From positions 434,001 to 498,000 of the forward strand of contig NZ_VCJO01000002.1 of NCBI RefSeq assembly GCF_009712475.1: a stretch of 64,000 nucleotides of DNA, written 5' to 3'. The notes beneath the pieces are model-generated. The model did no database searches. It saw nothing but the letters and a program-made list of their open reading frames with translations, and was not told the DNA's origin. This document shows, piece after piece, positions 1,385 to 35,882 of the stretch. Each line of letters begins with the position of its first letter. Within the stretch, counting starts at the first letter, position 1. The translations under genes and the position numbers were made by a program. Source of the stretch: Micromonospora sp. CP22 (GTDB taxonomy: Bacteria; Actinomycetota; Actinomycetes; Mycobacteriales; Micromonosporaceae).

Positions 1385-1561
1385 CGGGGCGACTCGAACA
1401 TCGAAGGCGGGTACGTCCATGGTCGACGGTCAAGGTTGCTGTTAGGTATCTGTCGTTCGGTTCCTGTCCCACCGCCGGTTCAGAAGTTACGGTTCGTCCA
1501 CCCCTATCTCGGTTAATTGGATCGTCAGTCCAGCCGACCGAACCGGCTGGTCGTGAGCGGG
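1385..1561 (+). promoter_or_regulatory. Leader region of the SARP regulator
   Basis: This stretch between the methyltransferase and the SARP gene is noticeably richer in A+T than its surroundings, for example around 1430-1455 and 1495-1525, which fits a promoter. I see no clear -35/-10 pair and no heptameric SARP repeat that I would defend. TTG (1517), GTG (1553) and ATG (1562) are in frame here. Confidence 0.3.
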
Positions 1562-4027
1562 ATGGATAGCAGGTCGATGGCTCAGGTCGAGGACGTGCAC
1601 GACACCGCCGACGGTGCTGCCGGACCGGGGGCAGCGGTGGAGTTCCGCATCCTCGGGCCGCTGGAGGTGCGGGCCCGCGACGAAGGCATCGACCTGGGCG
1701 CGCCGCGTCAACGCACGGTGCTGGCCAGCCTGGTCCTACAGGCCAACCGGGTCGTGTCGTTCGGGCACCTCGTCGAGGCGATCTACGGCGACAACGCCCC
1801 GCCCACCTCACGCGTCCAGATCCAGATCTGCGTCTCCGCGCTACGCCGCCTGCTGGCCGGGCACGGCCACGCCGACGCCATCCAGACCTACCCGACCGGC
1901 TACCGGCTCCACGTCGAGGCGGGCGCCCTCGACCTGCACCAGTACGAGGCCCTGATCGCCGAGGCCCGTCAGGCCCGCGACGCCCGGCGGTTCGCCGAGG
2001 CGGAGCGCGGTTACCGCACCGCGTTGGGGAAATGGCGAGGGCCGGCCCTGCGGGACGTCGAGAGCGCCGCCATCCGGGCCATCGCGCACGGCCTGGACGA
2101 GCGCCGCCTGACGGCCATCGAGGAGTGCATCGAGGTGGACCTGAGCCTTGGTCGGCATCGGGAGGTGATTCCCGAGCTGACCGAGTTGGTCATCGCGCAC
2201 CCGCTACGGGAACGCCTGCGGGGGCTGCTGATGATCGCCCTGCACCGATCGGAGCGGCAGGCTGACGCGTTGGACGCCTACCGGGACGCCCGCCGCACCC
2301 TGATCGACGAGTTGGGGCTGGAGCCCGGCGACTGGCTGCGTCGGCTGGAGCACGGCATCCTGACCGGCGATCCGGCGCTGACCCTACCGTCCACACCCGT
2401 CTCGGTCGTGGCGAGCCAACCGGCGGAAGCAGAACCGGTGCCCCGCCAGCTGCCGACCGACATCAGCGACTTCACCGGCCGCGACGACGAGGTGCGGTTC
2501 ATCGAGGAACACCTGACCGGCGGTGACCCGGACCGGGTGGCGGTGCCGGTGGTGGTGCTCACCGGCGGTCCCGGCACGGGCAAGAGCACCCTCGCGGTGC
2601 ACGTCGCGCACCGGCTCCGCGACCGGTTCCCCGACGGCCAGCTCTTCGTGAACCTGCACGGACGCCGACCGGAGCGGGTGTCGGCGGGTGAGGCCCTGCA
2701 ACGGTTCCTGCGCGCCCTCGGGGTGCCGCCCGACGCCATCCCGGACGGCGTGGACGAGCGGGCCGAGGTGTTCCGCGACCGGCTCGCCCATCGACGGCTG
2801 CTCATCGTGCTCGACGACGCGGCCGGGGAGTCCCAGGTGCTGTCGCTCCTGCCCGGTGACTGCCGCTCGGCGGTGATCGTCACCAGCCGGTCTCCCCTCG
2901 CCGCTATTCCCGGGGCGACCACCGCCCCGGTGGGCCCGCTACCGCCCCGGGACGCGATCACCCTGCTGCGGCACATCGTGGGCTCGGATCGCGTCGACCG
3001 GGAGCCCGGCTACGTGCTCGACCTGGCCAGGCTCTGCGGTCACCTGCCACTCGCCCTGCGCGTCGCGGGTGCCCGCCTCGCGTCACGCCCCCACTGGTAC
3101 GTCGCGGACCTGGTGGACCGGCTGGCCGACGAACGACGCCGGCTCGACGAGTTGGCCCACGCGGGCATCTGTGTCCGAAGCAGCCTGACCTTCGCGTACG
3201 ACGCACTCTGCGACAACGCCCGCCGGCTCCTGCGGCTGCTGGTGCTGGTCGGCCGGTCGTGGGTGTCGCCCTGGGTCGGTGCCGCGGTCCTCGACGTGTC
3301 GCTGGAGCGCGCCCAGGACGTGCTGGACGAGCTGTCCGACGCGCAGTTGCTCGAAACGACGCAGGGGCCCGGCGGGTATCCCCGCTATCGCCTGCACGAA
3401 CTGGTGCGGGTGTTCGCCCGCGAACGGCTCGCCGCGGAGGAGCGCCCGGCTGACCGGCATGCCGCGCTGGAGCGCTATCTGGACGCCGTGTTGACCTTGC
3501 TGGCGGCGGTGGAGCGGTGCAACGAACGGACCGCGCGGCGACCCCGCTGCGGCCCACCCGTACGCCTGTTCTCCGACCAGACGGCCGACCGGATCGTGAC
3601 CCCGATCGAGCAGTGGTACGAGTTGGAGCACAGCATGGTCCTCGCGGCCGTACGCCAGGCCGCGCAGGCCGGTCTCGTCGGTACGAGCATCCAGTTGGCC
3701 GCCGCCGTGGTCCGCGCGACCGAGTCGCTGCCCTACGCGGGCCACGCCCGGGAGGCGCAACGGATCGCCCTCTCCGCCGCCCGACGGGTCGGTGACCAGT
3801 GCGGTGAGGCCGCCGCCCTGTACACCTCGGCCGCCCTGTCGACGGCGCAGCGGCGCACCGCCGACGCGGTCCGCGAACTGCTGCGCGCGATGGCGTTGTC
3901 CGGCGAAACCGATGACGCGCACGAACGCGCCGACGAGGTGAGCGAGCTGCGCCGGCTGCTCGCCCATCGCGAGGCCCTCGATCCGCCTGAGCCACCGTCT
4001 CCGGGGCGCAGGGCCGGCTCGGTGTGA
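1562..4027 (+). CDS. AfsR/SARP-family transcriptional activator with NB-ARC ATPase domain
   Basis: About 821 aa from ATG 1562. The conserved SARP domain begins at VEFRILGPLEV, where a GTG (1637) is an alternative start. Order: OmpR-like winged-helix DNA-binding domain, bacterial transcriptional activation (BTAD) helices, then an NB-ARC/STAND ATPase with Walker A GGPGTGKST (Lys about 341), Walker B-like RRLLIVLDDA and the GLPL-type motif CGHLPLALRVAG. The C-terminal region is helical but lacks the long TPR array of full-length AfsR. SARPs activate antibiotic promoters by binding direct repeats near -35. It is followed 4 bases later by the transthyretin-like gene and then the StrR-type regulator, so it is likely a cluster-situated activator. 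Confidence 0.9.
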   Translation: MDSRSMAQVEDVHDTADGAAGPGAAVEFRILGPLEVRARDEGIDLGAPRQRTVLASLVLQANRVVSFGHLVEAIYGDNAPPTSRVQIQICVSALRRLLAGHGHADAIQTYPTGYRLHVEAGALDLHQYEALIAEARQARDARRFAEAERGYRTALGKWRGPALRDVESAAIRAIAHGLDERRLTAIEECIEVDLSLGRHREVIPELTELVIAHPLRERLRGLLMIALHRSERQADALDAYRDARRTLIDELGLEPGDWLRRLEHGILTGDPALTLPSTPVSVVASQPAEAEPVPRQLPTDISDFTGRDDEVRFIEEHLTGGDPDRVAVPVVVLTGGPGTGKSTLAVHVAHRLRDRFPDGQLFVNLHGRRPERVSAGEALQRFLRALGVPPDAIPDGVDERAEVFRDRLAHRRLLIVLDDAAGESQVLSLLPGDCRSAVIVTSRSPLAAIPGATTAPVGPLPPRDAITLLRHIVGSDRVDREPGYVLDLARLCGHLPLALRVAGARLASRPHWYVADLVDRLADERRRLDELAHAGICVRSSLTFAYDALCDNARRLLRLLVLVGRSWVSPWVGAAVLDVSLERAQDVLDELSDAQLLETTQGPGGYPRYRLHELVRVFARERLAAEERPADRHAALERYLDAVLTLLAAVERCNERTARRPRCGPPVRLFSDQTADRIVTPIEQWYELEHSMVLAAVRQAAQAGLVGTSIQLAAAVVRATESLPYAGHAREAQRIALSAARRVGDQCGEAAALYTSAALSTAQRRTADAVRELLRAMALSGETDDAHERADEVSELRRLLAHREALDPPEPPSPGRRAGSV

Positions 4028-4031
4028 CGCC

Positions 4032-4364
4032 ATGGCCGTATCGGCACGGGCACTCGACGGCGTCCTCGGTCGGCCCGCCGCGGGACTACGGATCCGCTTC
4101 GAACGCGACGACGACGGCTGGCGACCGATCGCCTGGGATGAGACCGACAGCGACGGATTCGTCCGGCTCTGGCCGGCTGCCGGACCCCGGGCCGGCGCCT
4201 ACCGGCTGGTGCTCGACTGCGACCACTACTTCGTCGGGCTGGGGATGGTCGCCAGCTTTCCGGCCGTGATCGCCGTCTTCCGGGTGGCCGACGAGGTGGA
4301 GAGCTACCACCTGGAGGTCGTGCTGGCTCCGGCCGCGTACTCCGTACGCATCGCTGCTTATTGA
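4032..4364 (+). CDS. Transthyretin/5-hydroxyisourate hydrolase-like protein, catalytic motifs missing
   Basis: 110 aa. The overall pattern of the HIU hydrolase/transthyretin family is recognisable: ALDGVLGRPAAGLRIRFER at the N terminus, T-D-x-D-G-x-V, YRLVLDCDHYF, FPAVIAVFRVADEVESYHLEVVLAPAAYS. However, the N-terminal catalytic His of the SxHVLD motif is absent (the segment reads ARALD) and the C-terminal Y-R-G-S signature is replaced by YSVRIAAY. The central Arg and the His of YHL are retained. It is therefore probably not a purine-pathway hydrolase and may be a non-enzymatic or re-purposed transthyretin fold. It starts 4 bases after the SARP stop and is probably cotranscribed. Confidence 0.65.
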   Translation: MAVSARALDGVLGRPAAGLRIRFERDDDGWRPIAWDETDSDGFVRLWPAAGPRAGAYRLVLDCDHYFVGLGMVASFPAVIAVFRVADEVESYHLEVVLAPAAYSVRIAAY

Positions 4365-4393: not shown

Positions 4394-5482
4394 GTGACCA
4401 ATGTTGGACGGTCGCAGGCTCGGCTGAGGGTGCACAAAGGCCAGAGCGAAAGCGAGCCAGACGTGATCACTTCTGTTGACGCATCGAGCCGACCGACCGA
4501 CCGCCCGACCATGGTTCCCATCTCCGCACTGGTTCTGGGCGACTCCCCCCGGCTCGCCGGGGAGGACCCAGGCCACATCCAGACGCTTGCCGAGGCGGGC
4601 ACCGAGTTGCCGCCGATCCTCGTCCATCGGGAGACCATGCGGGTCGTCGACGGCCAGCACCGCGTACAGGTGGCACGGCTCAACGGGCAACAGCACATCG
4701 CCGTCGTCTTCTTCACCGGCGAGGCCCGCGAAGCGTTCGTACGGGCGGTCGAGGCCAACACCTCCCACGGCCTGCCGCTCACCCTCGAAGACCGGCGCGA
4801 GGCGGCCCGGCGGATCATCGCCCTGTTCCCGGAGTGGTCGGACCGGGCGGTCGCCGAGGTGACCCGGCTGGGACCACGGACGGTCGCCACGATCCGCAGT
4901 TCGACTGACTCGATTGCGCAGTCGAACATGCGGATCGGGCGCGACGGCCGGACCCGACCGCTGGAGCCGGCGCAGGGGCGACTGCGGGCCGCCGAGGTGA
5001 TCGCCCGCCGACCGGAGGCGTCGTTGCGCGACATCGCCAGCGCAGCCGGGGTGTCGGTGAGCACCGCCCGGGACGTACGGCTCCGCATCAGCTCCGGGGA
5101 GAACCCGCTGCCGGCGAGCATGCGACCCGCGGACGACGACTCGGCGACGGACCGGGCCGGCCAGTCGACACGGCGGCGAGGCAACCGACCACGGGCGACG
5201 GCCTTCGCCCACCCCCGACCCACCTCGATCGTGATGGACGTGCTGCGCAAGGACCCGTCGCTGCGCTACACCGACGCCGGCCGGTTCATCCTGCGCTGGC
5301 TCGACTCGCACGTGGTGGACACACCGGACTGGAATCGGATCGTCACGCACATCCCGCCACACTGCGGGTACACGATCGCCGAACTGGCGGTCGGCTGCGC
5401 CCAGGCGTGGCAGCAGCTGGCCGAGGAGTTGCAGGCCATCATCGACGACACCGAGCCGGCGTCACACGACGTGGCCAGCTGA
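4394..5482 (+). CDS. StrR-type (ParB-like) pathway-specific transcriptional activator
   Basis: 362 aa. The N-terminal ParB/Srx-like domain reads MVPISALVLGDSPRLAGED, then HIQTLAEAGTELPPILVHR, MRVVDGQHRVQVARLNG and FVRAVEANTSHGLPLTLEDRREAARRII. This matches the StrR/Bbr/Tei15* family of antibiotic activators almost motif for motif. A helix-turn-helix follows (SLRDIASAAGVSVSTARDVRLRI). StrR proteins bind GTTCGActG-N11-CagTcGAAC sites, and a perfect copy lies within this gene (4899-4927). GTG 4394 gives an N-terminal leader similar in length to StrR; GTG 4463 and ATG 4511 are alternatives. The gene converges on, and overlaps by 21 bases, the condensation-domain gene on the other strand. Confidence 0.9.
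   Translation: MTNVGRSQARLRVHKGQSESEPDVITSVDASSRPTDRPTMVPISALVLGDSPRLAGEDPGHIQTLAEAGTELPPILVHRETMRVVDGQHRVQVARLNGQQHIAVVFFTGEAREAFVRAVEANTSHGLPLTLEDRREAARRIIALFPEWSDRAVAEVTRLGPRTVATIRSSTDSIAQSNMRIGRDGRTRPLEPAQGRLRAAEVIARRPEASLRDIASAAGVSVSTARDVRLRISSGENPLPASMRPADDDSATDRAGQSTRRRGNRPRATAFAHPRPTSIVMDVLRKDPSLRYTDAGRFILRWLDSHVVDTPDWNRIVTHIPPHCGYTIAELAVGCAQAWQQLAEELQAIIDDTEPASHDVAS
4899..4927 (+). promoter_or_regulatory. Perfect StrR-family operator inside the StrR-like gene
   Basis: The sequence is GTTCGACTG-N11-CAGTCGAAC, two perfectly symmetric 9-base arms with an 11-base spacer. This is the exact consensus architecture known for StrR-family binding sites. It lies in the coding sequence about 505 bases after the GTG start, around the codons of the RSSTDSIAQSN segment. 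An intragenic site of this kind is also known for strR of the streptomycin cluster (recalled, not checked), so autoregulation is plausible. Confidence 0.8.
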
Positions 5483-6784
5483 CCGACCGGCGAGATCGAC
5501 GACCCGCCGCGAGGGATCGACGGCCCCGTCGCCGACGATCCGCACGTATCCCGCGAGGAACTCGGCGGCGGTGTCGTCGGTCATCCGGTCGTCGGCCCGG
5601 AACAGCACGGCGCGTGGCTCGGCACCGATCGGCACCACGGTCTGCTCCAGCGGGAACCGGCTGCCCAACTGCACCGGAAGCTCAAGCTCGAACGTCACAT
5701 CGCGGACGGTCGCGGCACGGGCGAGATCGGCCATCACGTTGAAGACCACGTCGTCCGGACGTCCCGGCCCGGTCGGGGCGGCACCGGCCGGCAGCATCTG
5801 CACCGGCAGGTCCTGGTTGACCAGCGCGCCGACGGCGGTGCGGTGGGCGGCACGCACCAGGTCCAGGAAGCTCGCCGCCGGGTCCACCAACGTCCGCAGC
5901 AGCACCATGTTGGCGATCAGCCCCACCGTCTCGCGGACCTCCGGCCGCGACCGGTTGGCGTACATCGAGGCCACGCAGACGTCGGTCTGACCGGTGTGCC
6001 GGTGGAGGTTGGTGTAGAACGCGGCCAGCAGGACCACGAAGGGCGTGGTGCCGATCCGGGCGGCCAACTCCCGCACCGCCGGCAGGACCCCGGCCGGGAA
6101 GCCGGCCTCGGCCACCGCCGGCCCACCGGGACGCGCTCCGGTGGGCCGACCCAGTGACGGCAACTGCCCGCCGGCCAACCGGTCACGCCAGTAGCTCCGC
6201 TGACGGTCCAACTCGGGTCCGCGCAGCCGGTCGTGCTGCCACTGGGCGAAGTGCGCGTAGGACCAGCTGTCGCCGGTCGGGGCGCCCGGATCGCCGTAGC
6301 AGGTGGCCAGGTCGGCCAGCAGCACCCCGGTCGAGTACGCGTCGGTCACCAGATGGTGCAGGTTGAGGCAGAGCGCGTGGTGGTCGGTGGCCAGCCGCCA
6401 CACCGTCGCCCTGGTCGGCCACTGGTCGACCGGGACCGGCCGGGCCAGTTCCTCGACCGTCTCCTGAGCCAGCGTCCGACTCGGGTCGGCGGTCGCCGAC
6501 AGGTCCCGAACCTCGAACGGCATCGGCCGGGGTGGGTGGATCACCTGGGACAGCCGGGCACCCCGGCCCTGGAAGGTGGTCCGCAGCGAGGCGTGCCGAC
6601 GCGCCACCTCGTCGAGCGCGGCCCGTAGCCGGTCGAGATCGACCGGACCACTGATGCGACACAGCAGCGGGCAACTCAGTGCCCCGAAGTCGGAACGGTA
6701 GTGCTGGATCATCCACAGCAGACGTTGGGACACCGATGCCGGTGCCGTCACGCTGTCGGGGCCGGGAGCGAGGATGGGTGTCAT
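5462..6784 (-). CDS. Free-standing NRPS condensation (C) domain protein
   Basis: 440 aa, a single C domain with no A or carrier domain. Motifs: SVSQRLLWMIQHYR (C1), RRHASLRTTF (C2), LNLHHLVTDAYSTGVLL with the catalytic HHxxxD (C3), SYAHFAQWQ (C4), VCVASMYANRSRPEVRETVGLIANMVLLRT (C5) and QDLPVQMLP (C6). ATG 6784 puts the start 16 residues before the conserved core; the frame stays open 27 codons further upstream. It is closely similar in sequence and length to the stand-alone C protein at 41274, so the pair arose by duplication. Such proteins condense or esterify a carrier-bound acyl unit with a partner in trans; the partners here are unknown. Confidence 0.9.
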   Translation of the reverse strand: MTPILAPGPDSVTAPASVSQRLLWMIQHYRSDFGALSCPLLCRISGPVDLDRLRAALDEVARRHASLRTTFQGRGARLSQVIHPPRPMPFEVRDLSATADPSRTLAQETVEELARPVPVDQWPTRATVWRLATDHHALCLNLHHLVTDAYSTGVLLADLATCYGDPGAPTGDSWSYAHFAQWQHDRLRGPELDRQRSYWRDRLAGGQLPSLGRPTGARPGGPAVAEAGFPAGVLPAVRELAARIGTTPFVVLLAAFYTNLHRHTGQTDVCVASMYANRSRPEVRETVGLIANMVLLRTLVDPAASFLDLVRAAHRTAVGALVNQDLPVQMLPAGAAPTGPGRPDDVVFNVMADLARAATVRDVTFELELPVQLGSRFPLEQTVVPIGAEPRAVLFRADDRMTDDTAAEFLAGYVRIVGDGAVDPSRRVVDLAGRSAGHVV

Positions 6785-6830
6785 CCCACACCCGTACCCT
6801 GCCGGCCCCGCCTCCGCTAGCGTCGCCAGG

Positions 6831-7787
6831 GTGTCCAGGCATTCTGTCTCGTCATCCATCGACACACATCTTGACTGGAACTACGCCGACCACCTCGGGT
6901 CGACCTTCCGCACGCTGTACGAACGGGGCATCCGGGCGCAGTGGAGCGCCGACGACGTCGACTGGAGCCTGACCGTGCCGTACGGGTCGCCGCTGCCCGA
7001 CGACTCGGCCTTCGCGATGTCGGCGTTCCGCGCCTCACCGCTGGCCGATCGGGGCCGACCGATGTGGGACGCCTTCCGGTGGGAGCTGCAGGTGTGGATG
7101 GTCAGCCAGTTCCTGCACGGCGAGCAGGCGGCGATGGTGGTCGCCGGGCGGCTGGTCGGCAGCCTCCCCGACCTCGACAGCAAACTGTGCGCCGCGAGTC
7201 AGGCGATCGACGAGGCTCGGCACCTCGACGTCTTCTCCCGCTACCTGCGGGAGAAGGTGGACAACTCCTACCCGGTCTCACCGCCGCTGCGGGACCTGCT
7301 CGACGACGTACTCACCGAGTCGCGCTGGGATGTCACCGCACTCGGCATGCAGATCATGGTCGAGGCGGTCGCGATGGCCGCGTTCCGGCTGGCCGAGTCG
7401 ACGTTCCACGACGAACTCATCAAGGATCTGACCCGTCGAGTCGGCCGTGACGAGGCCCGCCACGTCTCCTTCGGCGTGCTCTCGTTGGAAGGGCTCTATC
7501 AGCAACTCACCAGCGCCGAGCGGGCCGAACGGGAGGAACTGGTGCTGGACGCCGCCGAACTCATCCGGCGTCGGTTCCTGCTCGTCGACGTCTGGGAGCG
7601 GCTGGAGGTCGACCCTCGGGACGGTGCCGAGTTCGCCGCCACCGACCCGTTGATGGTCCGCTATCGACAGGCCATCTTCTCCCGGGTGTGCCGGGCGCTG
7701 CGGCAGGTCGACCTGCTCACCGACCGGGTCGTCCGAGGTCTGGAAGGGCTCGACCTGCTGCCGCCGCCCGGGGCGGTGACCCGGTGA
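6831..7787 (+). CDS. Ferritin-like diiron protein (R2/N-oxygenase-type oxidase candidate)
   Basis: 318 aa from GTG 6831; an in-frame start at 6774 would overlap the divergent C-domain gene. The four-helix ferritin-like core has a complete set of diiron ligands: Glu98 in FLHGEQAAM, Glu128 and His131 in AIDEARHLDVF, Glu178 in MIMVEAVAMAAF-like sequence, Glu208 and His211 in GRDEARHVSFG. That E/ExxH/E/ExxH pattern is shared by ribonucleotide-reductase-R2-like oxidases, AurF-type N-oxygenases and CADD-like proteins. The family therefore predicts O2 activation, but not whether the product is a hydroxylated, N-oxidised or desaturated metabolite. Its stop overlaps the next start (GTGA), so it is coupled to the methyltransferase. 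Confidence 0.8.
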   Translation: MSRHSVSSSIDTHLDWNYADHLGSTFRTLYERGIRAQWSADDVDWSLTVPYGSPLPDDSAFAMSAFRASPLADRGRPMWDAFRWELQVWMVSQFLHGEQAAMVVAGRLVGSLPDLDSKLCAASQAIDEARHLDVFSRYLREKVDNSYPVSPPLRDLLDDVLTESRWDVTALGMQIMVEAVAMAAFRLAESTFHDELIKDLTRRVGRDEARHVSFGVLSLEGLYQQLTSAERAEREELVLDAAELIRRRFLLVDVWERLEVDPRDGAEFAATDPLMVRYRQAIFSRVCRALRQVDLLTDRVVRGLEGLDLLPPPGAVTR

Positions 7788-35103: not shown

Positions 35104-35882
35104 GCGCGGCGGCGAACGGCCCTCGGTGGCTGGCGGACGGCCCGCCCGATGCGCCCCTCGCGGTGCTCGCGCACGGGCTGGAGGACTCCTGGCGTACCTG
35201 GCTGCCGCTGGCCGACGTCCTCGGGCAGCGGTGGCGGGTGGCCGCACTCGACCTGCCGTGGCGGCCGGGCACCGACTACCGGTGGCGGCACCGGCCGGCT
35301 GCCGACGCGCTCGCCGACGCGGTCGACGGGCTCGGCGCGGAGATCGATCTGCTGGTCGCCCACTCCTACGGTGCGAACGCCACGTTGCACCTGTTGTGCC
35401 GGGACGCGCTGCCGGCCCGACAGGTGGCGCTGATCTGCCCGCTCTACCGCCCTCCCGGCCGTCCGGTGACGTGGGCGCTGTTCGACCGCGCACGGGCCGC
35501 ATTCGAACGGCACATCCACGAGTCGCTGCGCAGCCGCCAGGGCGAGCGTCTGGCCCGTACGCCGGACGACGTGCTGGCGACGATGACCCGCAAGGCGATC
35601 GACCGGGCCGGACCGGCCGGCTTCCTCGCGGTCTTCGAGCAGTACGTCACCAGTGCCGCGCTGCCGCTGGACCGGGTCCGCCCGCCGGTGCTGGTGCTCG
35701 GCGGCGGTGACGACCCGACCCTCAGCCCGGCGGCGGCCGGTGCCCTCGCCCGGGCGCTGCCCGACGCCCGACTCGTCGTCGACGACCGCTACGACCACTT
35801 CTGCCACCTGCGGCACCCGGCCGAGGTCGCGGCCCGGCTGTGCCGTTTCGCCGCACGCCCGGAATTCGAGGAGGTCCCGTGA
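35100..35882 (+). CDS. Alpha/beta-hydrolase
   Basis: 260 aa. APLAVLAHGLEDSWRTWLPLADVL (oxyanion region), LLVAHSYGANATLHL with the nucleophile Ser in H-S-Y-G, LVLGGGDDPTLS (acid) and DRYDHFCHLRHP (His). The elbow has Ala in place of the first Gly of GxSxG. Within the ketosynthase operon, it might hydrolyse or transfer the acyl chain; the substrate is not evident. Confidence 0.85.
   Translation: MSAAANGPRWLADGPPDAPLAVLAHGLEDSWRTWLPLADVLGQRWRVAALDLPWRPGTDYRWRHRPAADALADAVDGLGAEIDLLVAHSYGANATLHLLCRDALPARQVALICPLYRPPGRPVTWALFDRARAAFERHIHESLRSRQGERLARTPDDVLATMTRKAIDRAGPAGFLAVFEQYVTSAALPLDRVRPPVLVLGGGDDPTLSPAAAGALARALPDARLVVDDRYDHFCHLRHPAEVAARLCRFAARPEFEEVP

Follow-up and report, generated by a model that had tools for sequence, protein, structure and literature searches.

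Many antibiotic clusters encode a StrR-like protein (PMC10886168), and for StrR-type sites the consensus GTTCGActG(N)11CagTcGAAc has been printed (PMC8306873), the same sequence being given elsewhere as the 'well-established' StrR target (PMC8406272). A regulatory site may also lie within the regulator gene: C.Kpn2I acts from a site inside the coding sequence of its gene, through a transcription elongation roadblock, and its authors suggested that many C.Kpn2I-like proteins may be regulated in this way (PMC6237814). In a 64,000-nucleotide stretch of the genome of Micromonospora sp. CP22 (C22:434001-498000; hereafter the window, meaning the whole stretch of DNA that was analysed), a StrR-type palindrome, GTTCGACTG-ACTCGATTGCG-CAGTCGAAC, was located at 4899-4927, neither of its 9-base arms having a mismatch. 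It falls within a StrR-like open reading frame (ORF) at 4394-5482, and the operator predicted there is very probably real at the DNA level. The features concerned are the following.

4899-4927, no strand assigned: predicted intragenic StrR-type operator, GTTCGACTG-N11-CAGTCGAAC; no mismatch in either arm; part of the homologues have a palindrome at the equivalent codons
4899-4907, plus strand: left arm, GTTCGACTG; arm pairs 2/28, 3/27, 5/25 and 6/24 co-vary across 80 genes
4919-4927, plus strand: right arm, CAGTCGAAC; same arm-pair co-variation
4898-4927, plus strand: codons AGT TCG ACT GAC TCG ATT GCG CAG TCG AAC (SSTDSIAQSN) of a variable linker, including three rare codons (AGT, ACT, ATT)
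4463-5482, plus strand: StrR-like regulator gene, 339 amino acids (aa) from GTG 4463; ParB-CTPase-like N-terminal fold, then a helix-turn-helix (HTH) region
35480-35508, no strand assigned: look-alike with 16/18 consensus letters (2 mismatches), inside an alpha/beta-hydrolase ORF; judged a chance match

Matches to the pattern with at most 3 mismatches numbered 2 in the window, whereas the mean over 100 shuffles was 0.04 and no shuffle reached 2. A scan of the whole genome (5.85 Mb), as proposed in the first-pass annotation of this DNA, returned 5 places at the same threshold, against 1 for the reversed pattern; two of them were perfect sites, at 4899-4927 and at C22:499050-499078. The description of 4899-4927 in that annotation as perfect half-sites of the StrR-family consensus was borne out, the arms being exact and the same sequence being the one printed in PMC8306873 and PMC8406272, and its placing of the site inside the regulator gene was likewise correct. 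Its view that further targets would lie outside the window was right for one, since the second perfect site is 1,050 bp past the right edge, before a gene of an ATP-binding cassette (ABC) transporter. The statement that the window holds no other full site stood for perfect sites and has to be qualified for the 2-mismatch look-alike at 35480-35508. In the sister genome this look-alike is weaker (14/18 consensus letters, counted by eye), and it was rejected as a regulator target, being probably a chance match, because the match decays there. Apart from it and the two perfect sites, no place with at least 15/18 consensus letters was found in a region of 85 kb.

In 21 ORFs of the window, AGT, ACT and ATT account for 3.8%, 1.3% and 3.1%, respectively, of the codons in their families. 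By chance or through protein constraint, the peptide S-T...Q-S-N might merely happen to be encoded by a palindrome, and the peptide pattern itself does recur among homologues. However, the peptide alone does not explain the palindrome, because with the peptide SSTDSIAQSN and the codon use of the cluster given, both perfect arms are expected with P 4.9e-5; moreover, the linker is variable in the protein. Chance was rejected on this probability and on the 0.04 matches expected in the window, and protein constraint alone was rejected by the synonymous-codon shuffles in both homologue sets reported below (mean 0.30/81 vs 20 observed, and 0.136/19 vs 6), so that an origin of this kind is scarcely credible.

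For the first homologue set, the best 80 of at least 573 loci by protein similarity to the family alignment were taken from named genomes and were not chosen by site; one of them (L016) is a near sister of the query genome. The place was anchored by the invariant arginine after the linker (R in 81/81). A site was scored when it had at least 8/9 complementary pairs and at least 12/18 StrR-consensus letters, or at least 15/18 consensus letters, a rule that would under-count members with a glycopeptide-type consensus. An intragenic site was present by this rule in 26/80 loci, L016 included, and the reversed-sequence control yielded 3 sites over all 80 loci together. At the anchored place, at least 8/9 complementary arm pairs were found in 20/81 genes (query plus 80 loci; 19/80 without L016), whereas synonymous-codon shuffling within each gene gave the stated mean and a maximum of 3 in 500 shuffles; at the other offsets (-330 to +449), none was above 4/81 genes. 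The intragenic placement is not an accident, because homologues show a palindrome at this codon position more often than codon usage would produce one.

Arm complementarity amounted to 51.4% of pairs at register 0 and to 21.8-36.5% at 12 slid registers, and for the co-varying pairs (2/28, 3/27, 5/25 and 6/24) it was above all 2000 permutations. At pair 5/25 the counts were G-C 21, A-T 15, G-T 6 and A-C 6 (Fisher P 0.0011), and by reading frame the change at this pair leaves the left serine as it is but is non-synonymous in the right serine codon. An inverted repeat of this form also allows a 9-bp stem with an 11-base loop, and might thus serve as an mRNA hairpin in the regulator transcript instead of a DNA operator. 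Against this reading, the arms equal the published protein-binding consensus (PMC8306873, PMC8406272), and an identical arm pair is present upstream of the ABC-transporter gene, between ORFs. The deviating arm pairs (16 of A-C type, 3 of G-T type, 7 other) are the reverse of the tolerance of a sense RNA stem, although 12 of the 16 A-C deviations are at one arm pair and an antisense RNA is compatible with the pattern. The hairpin was rejected by the excess of A-C over G-T deviations and by an Rfam search that gave no match, and it is considered very improbable.

Several results weigh against the account favoured below. By the rule, 54/80 homologues are without an intragenic site, and 45/80 loci have neither an intragenic nor an upstream site. 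Offset +35 shows a higher mean pairing (5.23) than the anchor (4.68), and for 5/9 arm pairs complementarity does not rise above the permutations, in part owing to the near-invariance of three of these pairs. When the tree is built from the sequence outside the linker, the site label shows hardly any clustering (20 changes vs a shuffled mean of 22.9, with 60/500 shuffles as low); 33/78 inner branches of this tree are open, and its starred branches force at least 6 of the 20 changes. Either gain and loss of the site are frequent, or the tree lacks resolution. The first-pass annotation had held that absence of the site from orthologues that keep the protein would speak against it, and the answer was divided: the sister genome keeps the site, and the 80 homologues are split as given above. 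Upstream sites were found in 9/80 loci, some of which have a second site farther off, and 0/80 loci have both an upstream and an intragenic site. This mutual exclusion (P 0.023, kinship ignored) is suggestive only; upstream and intragenic sites would fit alternative positions for self-control.

Five loci without an intragenic site (L030, L033, L037, L060 and L091) have a similar palindrome about 20 to 750 bp past the stop codon, as if it had moved. In L064, from a metagenome-assembled genome of Streptosporangiaceae, two neighbouring StrR-like genes (2929-3885 and 6001-6906) each carry their own 9/9 palindrome at the same codon place. As for second homologues in the fetched loci, that of L064 was with the site and that of L078 without it, and those of L056 and L068 gave no anchor. 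The homologue P0098 has a LuxR-type GerE domain (PF00196) together with the peptide ST...PQSN at the site (protein level only).

Among nine genes scored from further genomes, the site was at the anchored place in two (L104 and L105) and not in L010, L011, L012, L103, L106, L107 and L108; this count leaves out L109-L111 (no anchor), the weak matches L013 and L014, and L015 (translated linker only). Plasmid records gave 84 matches, and 19 genes were fetched among the 40 matches listed; additional copies from S. zaomyceticus and S. clavuligerus were set aside, as was H30. By the same rule, 10/19 of these genes have an intragenic site, and at least 8/9 pairs were found in 6/19, the shuffle mean being 0.136 and the maximum 2 in 1000. 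The 10 site-bearing genes are not independent, as six of them (L118, L121, L122, L124, L127 and L128) share one neighbourhood, with genes for a GMC oxidoreductase, a DUF5987 protein, an AraC-type protein and a P450. One of the six, L128, comes from S. globisporus C-1027, where its annotation reads streptomycin biosynthesis operon regulator. In L112, also site-bearing, the StrR-like gene is followed by an inosamine-phosphate amidinotransferase gene. L125 and L129, near-copies within the set, are without the site, and none was found in L114, the match in Nonomuraea gerenzanensis. The StrR-like gene of S. clavuligerus at L119:2441-4270, with 589 aa counted from the match start, has roughly double the normal length and may be a fusion; the intragenic palindrome is present in it too.

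The pooled sites (38/101, counted without L016 and with only the two site-bearing further-genome genes added, hence usable for a consensus and not as a rate) suggest a longer dyad, GTTCRACYG-CGGA-NNN-TCCG-CAGTYGAAC. Its inner pairs were complementary in 62/130 cells of the first set, against 48.0 expected and a maximum of 60 in 300 shuffles.

The second perfect site (C22:499050-499078, equal to L007:9050-9078) is 44 bp before the start of the gene for the transporter ATPase (L007:8070-9005, minus strand), with ORFs for ABC-2 permeases behind that gene. The similarity of the ATPase to DrrA and NodI is below the cut-offs for these two. TTGACC stands 7 bases past this operator and is kept in the sister genome (G031), which also keeps both perfect sites, about 60 kb apart. 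Perfect sites of the StrR consensus are found at two places in the same cluster as the regulator, at 4899 and at C22:499050. The consensus scan of the 85-kb region gave no site before the biosynthetic genes, and these may be served by the SARP-type regulator at 1517-4027. The genes around the StrR-like gene are the following.

1517-4027, plus strand: large SARP-type regulator (BTAD and NB-ARC domains, by domain matches), upstream and co-directional
4032-4364, plus strand: small ORF in the same direction, lying between the two regulator genes; weak similarity to hydroxyisourate hydrolase, under the curated cut-off
5462-6865, minus strand: condensation-domain gene, convergent; its end overlaps the 3' end of the regulator gene, and no co-directional gene is right behind the site

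The StrR-like gene sits in a biosynthetic cluster. At 10125-56691 the window holds a non-ribosomal peptide synthetase (NRPS) cluster that also has type II polyketide synthase (PKS)-like genes (ketosynthase-like, carrier protein, FabA-like and DsbA-like), a thiazolinyl imine reductase-like gene and luciferase-like monooxygenases. This NRPS/type II PKS-like gene set is reminiscent of those for cinnamoyl-lipid peptides.

The simplest reading of the intragenic site is autoregulation, with the predicted regulator probably binding to its own gene. In the account that we favour, and hold to be about evenly balanced, the regulator would bind the operator in its own gene and is likely to brake its own transcription by blocking RNA polymerase. 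The regulator would bind both perfect sites, would activate the ABC transporter (an exporter) from the promoter-proximal site, and would limit itself via the intragenic site, where the bound protein would block RNA polymerase within its own gene as an elongation roadblock, as in C.Kpn2I. A roadblock as the mode of feedback is put forward by analogy and somewhat more tentatively, and the negative sign of feedback by roadblock is the least certain step of the account. Published descriptions speak partly against it: the literature presents StrR-like regulators as activators (PMC10886168), the sites bound by Bbr and AoStrR1 lie upstream of the respective regulator genes, and for AoStrR1 positive feedback has been suggested (PMC7852140).

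The suggestion in the first-pass annotation that a promoter at the site might read downstream is unlikely for this cluster and was rejected. A sense promoter there could not serve any gene immediately downstream, because 5462-6865 is on the minus strand and overlaps the end of the regulator gene, and no promoter-like hexamers flank the site in a weak scan. Over the sites scored, promoter-like hexamers flank 1/27 intragenic and 5/30 other sites, in a scan weak enough to have scored the ABC-transporter site 0 despite its TTGACC.

A related possibility is that the palindrome is a remote upstream activating site, and that the regulator bound there switches on a promoter situated near its gene or downstream of it, as with a strB1-type gene behind a StrR gene. 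In L112 the intragenic palindrome (9/9 pairs) is the only site by rule in 5.9 kb and is 708 bp before the start of the amidinotransferase (strB1-type) gene, and the next gene is co-directional in 17/26 site-bearing loci, which makes remote activation possible family-wide; both observations count against self-limitation. On the other side, the next gene here is convergent and overlapping, it is on the other strand in 9/26 site-bearing loci, and by the same weak scan no promoter-like hexamers are by the site in 26/27 cases. Remote activation is accordingly regarded as unlikely here.

Regarding the protein, the start at GTG 4463 was preferred over ATG 4511, since the homologues P0002 and P0003 are without Met at the position of ATG 4511. 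The database copy of the regulator (P0001, 323 aa) begins at ATG 4511, and homologues suggest GTG 4463. The regulator has a ParB-like N-terminal domain, and its predicted structure has a ParB-CTPase fold with the GxxR P motif present. G48 and R51 of the GxxR motif, which is named in PMC12704722, are invariant in 38/38 alignment rows. For the central HTH, the HTH_23 profile matched residues 177-216 in the 339-aa form with E 0.00025, which falls short of the curated cut-off; 32/38 alignment rows matched it at E 0.01, and the 323-aa structure model has helices at 153-166, 172-179 and 183-194. Linker residues 131-140 of the model have a mean predicted local distance difference test (pLDDT) score of 69. 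Sequence comparison of the regulator with solved structures gave no match, and NCBIfam assigned no family to it.

The ParB-like fold opens a further reading, in which StrR-like regulators would be ParB-fold nucleotide clamps, many with their own parS-like loading site in the gene. The regulator would load there as a nucleotide-dependent clamp, slide to nearby promoters, spread over the cluster and displace silencers such as Lsr2, thereby lifting silencing. VirB is such a clamp, which loads at its site and slides along DNA (PMC10770331), and CmlR, a StrR relative, counters Lsr2 silencing, an effect that its authors credit to RNA polymerase recruitment (PMC8406272). StrR has 0 occurrences in the main text of PMC12704722, and the Pfam ParB_N profile matches 1/38 rows, not the query. 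Clamp loading is judged rather improbable, as is its corollary that the loading site would be encoded in the linker between the two DNA-binding parts of the protein. Were it true, a cluster moving to another genome would carry gene, protein and loading site along as a single unit.

If self-limitation through the intragenic operator is correct, the feedback would travel with the gene, would survive promoter swaps and heterologous expression, and would be removable by synonymous recoding. The operator offers a clean test, in which the protein is the same and only the DNA is altered. The result bears on the self-control of the family, on the role of the ParB-like domain and on why one regulator can work in foreign clusters. 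No site terms were found in PMC10135024. Among the papers listed in literature searches, with most subscription journals outside their coverage, none dealt, as judged by title and start of abstract, with an intragenic site of the StrR family or with nucleotide binding by StrR-like proteins. The StrR paper of 1995 may include a site within strR.

Compared with known systems, the locus is closest to the StrR family (StrR, CmlR, Bbr, Dbv4, AoStrR1). It shares the consensus of StrR, which was also used to find the CmlR site, the layout of an N-terminal ParB-like part and a central HTH described for StrR (PMC10886168), and the position of the gene within a biosynthetic cluster. It differs in that two studies sought sites of the family in intergenic or promoter regions (PMC8406272, PMC7852140), whereas here the site is in the coding sequence of the regulator; the glycopeptide members of the family differ also in consensus, GTCCAaN17TtGGAC (PMC7852140). 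The VirB and ParB/Noc/KorB clamps resemble the regulator in the ParB-type N-terminal fold of its model and in its GxxR motif, but they have a different site, the regulator has a further HTH region after the ParB-like part, and nucleotide binding is hypothetical here. As with C.Kpn2I (PMC6237814), an operator-like site is found within the sequence that codes for the regulator, binding being predicted here. C.Kpn2I is a controller protein of a restriction-modification system, whereas here the roadblock is predicted and the regulator is from an activator family. C.Kpn2I is not known to be related to StrR. StrR-type operators and regulators are already known, and what appears to be new is the unusual, recurrent and DNA-constrained place of the predicted operator.
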